A stretch of 64,000 nucleotides of DNA from an uncultured Verrucomicrobiota bacterium (lineage in GTDB: Bacteria > Verrucomicrobiota > Verrucomicrobiia > Limisphaerales > UBA9464), in assembly GCA_903939515.1 (NCBI GenBank), contig CAJAHH010000049.1, positions 1-64,000 of the forward strand, in the 5' to 3' direction. Each line of letters begins with the position of its first letter. The stretch's first letter is position 1. Both the position numbers and the translations under genes were made by a program. This document shows positions 344-16,385 of this stretch, piece by piece. The notes under the pieces are model-generated. The model saw only the letters and a list, made by a program, of their open reading frames with translations. It did no database searches and was not told the origin of the DNA.

Positions 344-359
344 TGTTCCACGTGGAACA
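344..359. promoter_or_regulatory. parS: parS-type ParB binding site (copy 1)
   Basis: The perfect 16-bp palindrome TGTTCCACGTGGAACA matches the widely conserved bacterial chromosomal parS, which is bound by ParB (Spo0J) and usually clusters near the origin, often beside gidA/mnmG. It lies 65 bases upstream of the chosen mnmG start. An identical copy lies 798 bases downstream inside mnmG. Two exact copies in 64 kb are far beyond chance. parA and parB themselves are not in the window. Confidence 0.85.
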
Positions 360-423
360 TTCGATTCAAATCACCGCCTCGCCCTGAGATTGCTGATTGG
401 GAAGAAATCACTACCCTCCCGGC

Positions 424-2412
424 ATGTTCGTCTATCCTAAGCGGTATGATGTCATTGTGGTGGGAGCTGGCCATGCTGGGGTGGAAGCGGCTTTGGCTGC
501 CTCGCGGATGGGCTGCAAAACACTGCTGTTGACCATCAATTTGGACACCATCGGGCAAATGTCCTGCAATCCGGCCGTTGGCGGACTTGCCAAAGGTCAC
601 CTCGCCCGAGAAATAGACGCTCTAGGCGGAGAGATGGGAAAGACGACCGACCTCTGCGGCCTCCAATTCCGAATGCTCAACACGAAGAAGGGGCCCTCTG
701 TGTGGGCTCCCAGGGCGCAATGCGACAAGAAGGCCTATCAGTTTCGTTTGAAGTGGGTCTGCGAACGCCAGCCCCTTTTAGACTGCAAACAGGGTCAAAC
801 GCTCCGCTTGCTCCATCGAGAGGGCCGCGTTTATGGGGTCGAGACCGCCTTGGAGGTTCAATTCCTCGCCGAAACTGTCGTGGTTACCACCGGAACGTTC
901 CTGCGAGGTCTCATGCACATTGGGGCCAATCAGCAATCCGGCGGTCGTGCGGGTGAATCGGCGGCCACCGGCCTTTCAGGGTCCTTAGCTGATGTGGGCC
1001 TCCGCTTAGGCCGACTGAAGACCGGAACTCCCCCTCGATTAGTCCGTCAATCCATCGATTTCACCCGAACTGAGCCCCAATATGGGGATGAACCGGTTCC
1101 CTGGTTCACTTATTGGAAGGAAGACCTCTGGAACGATCCATTGTTCCACGTGGAACATCGCTCTGGAAGTTCCACACTTCCTCCCGGGCCTTACCCTGCG
1201 GGATCCATCCTGGCACGACATGGCGGTCAAGAACCCTGCTACATCACCCATACCACCGATCGCACCCGGGAGATCATCCTGCAGAATTTGCACAAGTCCC
1301 CGATGTATTCAGGAGTCATTGAGGGCGTCGGACCCCGTTATTGTCCGAGCATTGAAGACAAATACGTCCGGTTCGCCGACAAACCAAAACATCAGATCTT
1401 CTTGGAACCAGAGGGGATCGCCACCGATGAAATCTACGTCAACGGGTTCTCGACCTGCCTTCCCTTTGAAGTTCAGATCGAAATGGTCCATTCCATCGTT
1501 GGTTGCGAACAGGCGGAAATCCTCCGGCCCGCCTATGCGGTCGAGTATGATTTCTCTGATCCCACCCAACTCTCTCCCAGCTTAGAAACCCGCTGCTGCC
1601 AGAATCTCTTCCTAGCAGGCCAAATTAATGGAACATCCGGTTACGAGGAAGCCGCAGCCCAAGGAATCATGGCCGGCATCAATGCGGCCCGACGAGTCCA
1701 AGCAAAGGACCCGATCGTCCTACGACGAGATCAGGCTTACATTGGGGTTCTCATCGATGATCTCGTCACCAAAGGCACCCTGGAGCCTTACCGGATGTTC
1801 ACCAGCCGGGCCGAATACCGCCTCCTCCTGCGTCAAGACAACGCCGACCAACGCCTTAGCCCGATCGGTCGGGACATTGGTCTGCTACCTCAGCGGCACT
1901 TTGATCAATTCTCCTCCAAACTTCTCTCAATTCAGGAAGAAGTCCGTCGGCTTCAAACGACCCGGCATGGTCAGGACCTCCTGTCCGATCTCCTCAAGCG
2001 GCCCGAAGTGGAGTATCGCACCTTGCCCGGTCTCAGAACCGATCTGCCCGACGAAGTCACTCTACAGGTCCAGATCACTCTTAAATATGCCGGTTACATC
2101 GATCGCCAAGAAGCGGAAGTCGAACGCCTGCGTCTTTGGGAGAATCAAGGCATCCCTGCCACTTTGGACTACGGACAAGTCCCCAGCCTACGGATCGAGG
2201 CCCGTTTAAAGCTCCAATCCATTCAACCCACCTCCTTAGGTCAGGCGGGTCGGATCAGCGGTGTCACCCCCGCCGATGTCTCGGTCTTGAGTCTCTTCCT
2301 CAAACGAATGATGGCAGCCCCATCCAAAGCAGAATCGGAGTCCAACGCCTGCTGCTCAGAGGAACACTTAGACGCCCCAGGAGCCCACAATCAGTGCTGC
2401 GGAGACCTCTAA
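424..2412 (+). CDS. mnmG: tRNA uridine-5-carboxymethylaminomethyl modification enzyme MnmG (GidA)
   Basis: FAD-dependent subunit that, with MnmE, installs the 5-carboxymethylaminomethyl group on the wobble uridine of certain tRNAs; cytoplasmic. The N-terminus has the dinucleotide-binding motif VVGAGHAGVEAA. Family blocks follow: MSCNPAVGG, LKTGTPPR, GVGPRYCPSIEDK, GQINGTSGYEEAAAQG and EPYRMFTSRAEYR. The ATG at 424 is preferred over a TTG at 397 because it directly precedes the conserved YDVIVVGAG start; this gives 662 residues. Two oddities: a variable loop at about residues 233-262 carries a parS palindrome encoding LFHVEH (residues 240-245), and the C-terminus ends in an unusual Cys-rich tail with two CC pairs. 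In many bacteria this gene adjoins rsmG and parAB; here a YihY-type gene follows. Confidence 0.96.
   Translation: MFVYPKRYDVIVVGAGHAGVEAALAASRMGCKTLLLTINLDTIGQMSCNPAVGGLAKGHLAREIDALGGEMGKTTDLCGLQFRMLNTKKGPSVWAPRAQCDKKAYQFRLKWVCERQPLLDCKQGQTLRLLHREGRVYGVETALEVQFLAETVVVTTGTFLRGLMHIGANQQSGGRAGESAATGLSGSLADVGLRLGRLKTGTPPRLVRQSIDFTRTEPQYGDEPVPWFTYWKEDLWNDPLFHVEHRSGSSTLPPGPYPAGSILARHGGQEPCYITHTTDRTREIILQNLHKSPMYSGVIEGVGPRYCPSIEDKYVRFADKPKHQIFLEPEGIATDEIYVNGFSTCLPFEVQIEMVHSIVGCEQAEILRPAYAVEYDFSDPTQLSPSLETRCCQNLFLAGQINGTSGYEEAAAQGIMAGINAARRVQAKDPIVLRRDQAYIGVLIDDLVTKGTLEPYRMFTSRAEYRLLLRQDNADQRLSPIGRDIGLLPQRHFDQFSSKLLSIQEEVRRLQTTRHGQDLLSDLLKRPEVEYRTLPGLRTDLPDEVTLQVQITLKYAGYIDRQEAEVERLRLWENQGIPATLDYGQVPSLRIEARLKLQSIQPTSLGQAGRISGVTPADVSVLSLFLKRMMAAPSKAESESNACCSEEHLDAPGAHNQCCGDL
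1142..1157. promoter_or_regulatory. parS: parS-type ParB binding site (copy 2, inside mnmG)
   Basis: The same perfect palindrome TGTTCCACGTGGAACA as at 344-359, embedded in the mnmG reading frame. It encodes residues 240-245 (LFHVEH) in a loop that is shorter in the E. coli protein. Intragenic parS sites are known in other bacteria, so binding by ParB is likely but not shown here. Confidence 0.82.
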
Positions 2413-8906: not shown

Positions 8907-10022
8907 TCAGCTCATGCGCATCGGCATGATTACATACAGAAACGGCTCATTGGTCTTCAAAACACCCGGGCTGAGCTCATCAATGAGTTCAAAATAAACC
9001 TCATCGGTATCCAACGCCTTCAGGGGATCCATTAAATAACCCGGGTTGAACGCGATGGCGAAATCTTTGCCTTGGTACTTGATGGCTACCGTTTGCCGAG
9101 CTTCGCCGACCTCTGGAGCATTGGCAGTGATGGCCAACTGATTGCGGCTGAAGGTCAACTTCACCGAATTCTGCTTATCGGTGGTCATGATCTCAGCCAG
9201 TCGGAGCGACTTGAGAAATTCTTCTCGATTGAGCGGCACCCGTTCCAACGGTTCGGCAGGAATCACCTGACGATAATTCGGATACACTCCATCCACCAAT
9301 TTGGTGACCAAGATCGCCGACACGGCGCCTTCGGTGGTGGGCTTCGTTGCGAACGAGGCCTGATTCTCAGTGAATTTGACCTCCACATTCCCGCCACCCT
9401 GGAGCAAGCGGGTCAATTCATTGATCGCTTTGGTGGGAAGGATGAAATCGGCCTGGTTGTCTGCTGAAATCTCGAATTCCTCTTCGCACAAGGCCAGCCG
9501 GCGGCCATCGGTAGCCACCAAGATCAGCTTGTTTTCCTTGAGGCTGATGTAAATGCCGTTGAGCACAAACCGGCTCTCGTCGGTTGAAACCGCAAAGCTC
9601 GTCTTGCGAAGCATTCCTTTGAGTTTGTCCTGAGGAATGACCACCGTGCGATTTTGTGCAAACACCGGCAGCGGAGGAAACTCCTCGGCGGCCAAACCGT
9701 TGACCTTGAAGAATGCGCTTCCGGCTCGGATTGAGGCCACGGACTTCTCATCAACCTCGATCTCGATCTCCGTAGCCATGAGCTCCCGGGTGATATCGAC
9801 CAGCTTCTTCACTGGCAGCGTTGCCCGACCCGGCTGCTCCACGGTGGCGGCCACCGAACAGGTGATCGTCACGTCTAAATCGGTGGCGGTCAGCGAGAGG
9901 CGCCCTTCGCCCGTCTCCAACAGGACATTGGACAAGATGGGCAGCGTGGATCGCGACCCGACAATGTTCTGCACGGCCTGAAGGCCAACGAGCAGCTGAT
10001 CCTTGGCGATCGTTAGTTTCAT
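8907..10022 (-). CDS. dnaN: DNA polymerase III beta subunit (sliding clamp)
   Basis: The 371-residue clamp that encircles DNA as a dimer and tethers the replicative polymerase. The N-terminus (MKLTIAKDQLLVGLQAVQNIVGSRSTLPILSNVLLE) and the blocks FAVSTDESRFVLNGIY, LVATDGRRLAL, GVYPNYRQVIP and the C-terminal YVIMPMRM are family hallmarks; the last forms the partner-binding pocket edge. dnaN normally lies beside dnaA and recF near the origin. Here it is flanked by a lipoprotein gene and, divergently, a pterin dehydratase gene, so the usual dnaA-dnaN-recF order is not kept. Confidence 0.97.
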   Translation of the reverse strand: MKLTIAKDQLLVGLQAVQNIVGSRSTLPILSNVLLETGEGRLSLTATDLDVTITCSVAATVEQPGRATLPVKKLVDITRELMATEIEIEVDEKSVASIRAGSAFFKVNGLAAEEFPPLPVFAQNRTVVIPQDKLKGMLRKTSFAVSTDESRFVLNGIYISLKENKLILVATDGRRLALCEEEFEISADNQADFILPTKAINELTRLLQGGGNVEVKFTENQASFATKPTTEGAVSAILVTKLVDGVYPNYRQVIPAEPLERVPLNREEFLKSLRLAEIMTTDKQNSVKLTFSRNQLAITANAPEVGEARQTVAIKYQGKDFAIAFNPGYLMDPLKALDTDEVYFELIDELSPGVLKTNEPFLYVIMPMRMS

Positions 10023-14072: not shown

Positions 14073-14217
14073 TCGCAAGATGAGACCGCCGCGACCAGAC
14101 ACGGGTGGAATCCAACTTTAGGTGTAACCCGAGAGGGTCCGGGCCAAAGCATCCGAGGATTACAGGAGCTGGATTACTTTCCTTTTGGCGAGGACGCGGT
14201 CCAAGTCCATACTTCGG

Positions 14218-16385
<2,168 letters not shown>

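Follow-up and report, generated by a model that had tools for sequence, protein, structure and literature searches.

How can a chromosome segregation site come to lie inside the reading frame of a conserved tRNA enzyme, and has the DNA site or the protein set the sequence found there? Chromosomal parS sites of ParABS systems share a 16-bp palindrome with the consensus TGTTYCACGTGRAACA. The window analyzed here, 64,000 nucleotides (C49:1-64000) from the draft genome of an uncultured Verrucomicrobiota bacterium (4,712,579 bases in 160 contigs, 95.9% complete), holds two exact copies of this consensus, 798 bp apart. The original prediction had placed one of them before mnmG and the other within it, and both placements are confirmed:

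344..359, no strand: candidate parS site 1, intergenic, upstream of mnmG; exact TGTTCCACGTGGAACA
397..2412, plus strand: mnmG (gidA), encoding the enzyme of tRNA uridine-34 cmnm5 synthesis; full-length match to TIGR00136 at 800.6 bits (curated cut-off 524.85)
1117..1212, plus strand: coding sequence of the loop hosting the palindrome, about residues 241-272, from alignment with the Escherichia coli protein and AlphaFold
1142..1157, no strand: candidate parS site 2, inside mnmG, read as LFHVEH; exact TGTTCCACGTGGAACA
8907..10022, minus strand: dnaN, an origin-proximal marker; TIGR00663, 337 bits

The gene more likely starts at ATG 424, where E. coli MnmG begins, and with the start placed there site 1 lies about 65 bp 5' of mnmG. 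Site 2 falls inside the 671-codon open reading frame, and C57 and C316 of the protein are invariant among 39 homologues. At the contig end upstream of mnmG, positions 1-58 and 216-273 form a perfect 58-bp direct repeat with a spacing of 215, perhaps a dispersed repeat at which the assembly broke off. Elsewhere in the window, a TPP riboswitch (14214-14325, plus strand; Rfam RF00059, 67 bits) stands in front of thiC; as the mechanical ORF start at 14274 overlaps the riboswitch, the true thiC start lies downstream.

Across the whole draft genome, TGTTCCACGTGGAACA has no further match at one mismatch or fewer. There is a single two-mismatch site, at C75:13942, and matches at three mismatches are near background (18 in total versus 11 for a reversed control). 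From base composition, about 4e-7 exact copies are expected per 2-kb gene and 9e-4 per genome. The 16-mer is thus confined to the mnmG locus rather than scattered genome-wide, and a dispersed repeat or mobile element was rejected because only two copies exist in the genome.

The same genome encodes a cognate chromosomal ParB, whose presence the original prediction had made a point to check. It is the one ParB above the family cut-off (C54:4850; TIGR00180, 165 bits), its best matches among solved structures in the PDB are Spo0J/ParB chains, and it keeps the typical helix-turn-helix and GHAKV DNA-binding motifs, which 39 homologues in related genomes also retain. It had also been noted that no parA or parB follows mnmG, and neither gene is near it: the best ParA lies on C119, parB on C54, and mnmG on C49, three separate contigs. 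An adjacent parAB operon, common at parS sites though not defining for them, is therefore missing here. No parA or parB was found near mnmG in the Verrucomicrobiota loci examined, and no ParA within about 1.5 kb of ParB at the 48 ParB loci searched; the closest linkage seen is in G114, with about 17 kb between ParB and mnmG on one contig. Five genomes of family f4 (G091, G121, G201, G057, and G103) carry a second, longer ParB-like protein of about 540 to 560 amino acids, far from the first.

The peptide LFHVEH occupies residues 249-254 of the 671-amino-acid reading, within a loop of about 32 residues (about 241-272) where aligned E. coli MnmG has about 3, in keeping with the earlier claim that the loop is shorter in E. 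coli. The AlphaFold model of MnmG is confidently folded (mean pLDDT 85). Values below 50 are limited to the termini, a 3-residue stretch at 60-62, and residues 251-262, which are the sole long low-confidence segment within the folded body. The loop segment with LFHVEH is thus predicted to be disordered, and this floppy loop seems to exist mainly for carrying the DNA site.

The sequence FHVE(H/Q) is conserved at the same loop in many families, as would also be seen if it were a functional MnmG motif and the palindrome a by-product of its coding. Codon choice argues against that reading. We collected 120 FH[VM]E[HQ] peptides from MnmG homologues and took the codon usage of each individual gene as the expectation. 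The full set of four parS codons is present in 106 of the 120, compared with 7.0 expected and a maximum of 20 in 100,000 simulations, a contrast that is strong, though the sequences are related and the test carries no phylogenetic correction. Within the core, Phe is TTC and Glu is GAA in every case (120/120 each), His is CAC in 112/120, and Val is GTG in 113/114. The residue before the core varies among L, M, and V, its codon mostly ending in TG, while the last residue alternates between H and Q with CA constant. When 39 relatives are aligned by codon, the three highest ranks of 580 in synonymous conservation go to codons 250, 252, and 253, in that order, whereas 248 and 255, which lie beyond the palindrome, show nothing unusual. 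The expectation that synonymous codons would be fixed at the DNA level is thereby borne out.

Reading frames are equally telling. Further copies in the loop are read as VPRGT or CSTWN (L190, L191, L204, L208, and L341), and at L341 (genome G130) parS copies use all three frames within one gene. Because the same DNA yields such unrelated peptides, a protein-level cause is excluded. Several copies that seemed off-frame within stop-to-stop ORFs (L056-L058, for example) proved to be upstream intergenic sites and were left out of the coding counts. The number of copies per mnmG varies from 1 to 3, and in family f3 the position shifts to about codon 548. E. coli lacks the loop, which in the window protein is predicted to be disordered, and lineages without ParB lack the peptide-bearing site. 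We therefore rule out the peptide motif, on codon statistics and frame-shifted copies, and leave it next to no probability. The site is conserved by selection on DNA, not on protein.

The palindrome is kept in close relatives, as the original prediction required. All 27 mnmG loci from the same family have the in-gene site, 26 of them exactly and 1 with one mismatch. Two copies lie inside the loop at L032 and L033; at L031 only the second copy is retained, the first being destroyed. In one relative (L046/L035), whose MnmG is 98% identical, each copy has one mismatch, the inner one being synonymous. An extra copy just upstream of mnmG is present at 22 of the 27 loci, mostly 760 to 930 bp from the inner copy. 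Such spacing would fit a pair of operators flanking the gene start, at which ParB, or some other regulator that binds palindromes, would control the transcription of mnmG. Many genomes, however, have only a deep intragenic copy, about 700 bp into mnmG or at codon 548, and the sequence is that of the chromosomal parS consensus and tracks ParB, so that we consider operators very unlikely. Local regulation of mnmG may still arise as a side effect of ParB spreading.

To see how far the site follows ParB, mnmG was read from 90 further genomes of the phylum, counting any site in the gene with at most one mismatch. Of the 67 genomes that encode canonical ParB, 63 have such a site, as does 1 of the 23 that lack it; 63 genomes thus have both, 22 neither, 4 ParB only (G174, G216, G052, and G175), and 1 the site only. 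Counted by family, both are present in 22 and neither in 11, 1 family has ParB only, and 4 are mixed. The association is genuine, yet the Fisher p of 6e-16 overstates it, because only about 3 to 4 independent changes underlie it on the MnmG tree, where most genomes with neither form one clade.

Family f7, with genomes of 0.9 Mb, has no ParB, and one member retains a decayed site, GGTTTCACGTGAAGCA. In genus g11 of family f3, probably Akkermansia, the loop site is degenerate and an exact copy stands at about codon 548 of mnmG; L141, from a sister genus, has imperfect copies at both places. The ParB-bearing genome G174 (L344), which has no mnmG site, carries two TGTTCCATGTGGAACA sites 937 bp apart (C26:95516 and 96453), near trmL- and secA-like sequences, and this pair is apparently a relocated centromere. 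In one-mismatch variants such as TGTTCCATGTGGAACA, one half-site stays perfect, and Pseudomonas aeruginosa ParB binds half-sites GTTCCAC (PMC10419367). Only or mostly CATGTG/CACATG variants are found at L079, L085, L066, L067, L072, L073, and L081, with several such copies each at L079 and L085, which suggests that the ParB preference has shifted in these lineages.

Among 24 complete or near-complete genomes, scanned with Y/R variants of the consensus allowed, an exact site is present in 17, the same 17 that have canonical ParB. Every exact site is in or beside mnmG, and 13 genomes have one site only. When one mismatch is allowed, the extra matches fall within 10 kb of mnmG, except for a TTTC-type near-match in G236. 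The partner gene of mnmG, mnmE, can also host the sequence: G236 (L342:2710) has an exact copy inside mnmE, just past the NKTDL motif. One-mismatch TGTTCTACGTGGAACA copies lie in mnmE of G189 (L161:1998) and in an ORF closely similar to mnmE in G140 (L181:5257), in a different reading frame.

The proximity of dnaN had been taken as a sign that the sites are near the origin, and this holds. GC skew in the window is -0.16 at 4 to 8 kb, about 0 at 8 to 12 kb, and +0.05 to +0.10 beyond, with its change of sign in the interval of about 8 to 12 kb, at dnaN, so that both markers lie within about 10 kb. Sampled GC skew in four complete relatives places the origin at the mnmG site, not at dnaA, in three: in G137, G070, and G236 the minus-to-plus switch falls in or beside the interval holding the mnmG site, with dnaA 2.2, 1.2, and 0.5 Mb away from the switch, respectively. 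The fourth, G171, has no clear skew in the same sampling. Both dnaN and sampled skew point to clustering of the sites near the replication origin. A Hi-C study of 12 gut species, Akkermansia muciniphila among them, used parS clusters, GC skew, and coverage to locate origins, found them at parS clusters but not in every case at dnaA, and warned that dnaA is no sure marker; its passages on this point make no mention of mnmG (PMC10197239).

Might the site nonetheless be a relict of an ancestral rsmG-parA-parB locus, no longer acting? That parA and parB adjoin neither mnmG nor each other in the examined loci would fit, as would two arrangements elsewhere: parA and parB stand by mnmG in Limnohabitans (L083), and an acidobacterial metagenome-assembled genome (MAG), G244, has the same 16-mer with rsmG on one side and parA-parB on the other. 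A relict would hardly be the most synonymously constrained part of mnmG, multiplied in some lineages, relocated intact in others, and the sole exact parS in most complete ParB-bearing genomes; we hold this explanation to be extremely improbable.

Taken together, the sequence evidence makes it very probable that both palindromes are genuine chromosomal parS sites, in many lineages the sole centromere, to which ParB would bind. The claim that the enzyme has accommodated a segregation site finds support in conservation, codon constraint, and the presence of ParB. The arrangement is old: genomes with ParB from more than one class of Verrucomicrobiota have it, usually as the sole exact parS. It is absent from a large sampled clade without canonical ParB and decayed in tiny genomes lacking ParB through loss.

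By analogy with known ParABS biochemistry, from which we infer the roles in loading, binding, and segregation, canonical ParB, encoded elsewhere in the genome, would load on the palindromes as a CTP-dependent clamp and spread over the mnmG region beside oriC, and ParA would then move the duplicated origins apart. One site may lie within the mnmG frame because this origin-proximal gene offers a surface loop in which nearly any peptide is tolerated. Selection for the DNA site would have fixed the codons TTC CAC GTG GAA CA and hence the FHVE(H/Q) peptide, which has no apparent enzymatic importance. In a plausible history, an ancestral mnmG-rsmG-parA-parB origin locus dispersed, while the site stayed, sheltered in the mnmG loop, because a near-origin position was required.

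On balance we favor, as a probable overall picture, that the principal and often sole centromere of most ParB-bearing Verrucomicrobiota is inside mnmG, that the need for segregation created and maintained the loop, in any of three frames, because the centromere is encoded within the enzyme, that parA, parB, and parS are mutually unlinked, and that the marker of the origin region is mnmG, not dnaA. If so, mnmG clearly exemplifies how a cis-acting DNA site can dictate part of a conserved enzyme over phylum-scale evolution, with natural controls in other reading frames, relocated copies, and loss along with ParB. The site would also serve as a sequence-level marker of the origin region in Verrucomicrobiota, for which dnaA is a misleading guide. 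What holds parS at the origin once parA and parB have moved away becomes a testable question, and cultivated members, Akkermansia among them, make a test of ParB practical.

Intragenic parS sites are already known: in P. aeruginosa they have been mutated without protein change (PMC4368675). We found no report of a phylum-wide mnmG-embedded parS, or of parS in Verrucomicrobiota coding DNA, in a search mostly outside the subscription literature, where prior notice is possible; the mnmG arrangement is thus apparently unreported. An acidobacterial origin for the mnmG site of L080 (PLTV01000058.1, labelled Acidobacteriaceae) was rejected. The L080 contig shows synteny at two genes with mnmG loci of Verrucomicrobiota, and its MAG has a conventional rsmG-parS-parS-parA-parB locus of its own, which makes mis-binning or transfer of the contig probable. 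In the betaproteobacterial outgroup Limnohabitans, mnmG hosts a parS too: TGTTTCACGTGAAACA lies in the mnmG ORF (L083:9446) at another position and in another frame (VSRET), with parA and parB nearby.

MnmG of the window belongs to the same family as E. coli MnmG (PDB 3CES, 3CP2, and 9HIP) and aligns with it over the whole length, but has a 32-residue loop with the parS-encoded LFHVEH in place of 3 residues. The origin neighborhoods of Limnohabitans L083 (mnmG-rsmG-parA-parB) and of G244 (the same 16-mer in rsmG-parS-parS-parA-parB) likewise set mnmG or rsmG near parS. At the examined Verrucomicrobiota loci, by contrast, parA and parB are away from mnmG, parA is away from parB, and the site is in coding DNA, not beside parA. 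With chromosomal parS of ParABS systems elsewhere, the mnmG site shares the identical 16-bp palindrome, a canonical ParB in the genome, and clustering at the origin. It differs in being typically the genome's only exact site, in occupying the same enzyme loop in members of more than one class, in being unlinked to parA and parB, and in having shaped its host protein.
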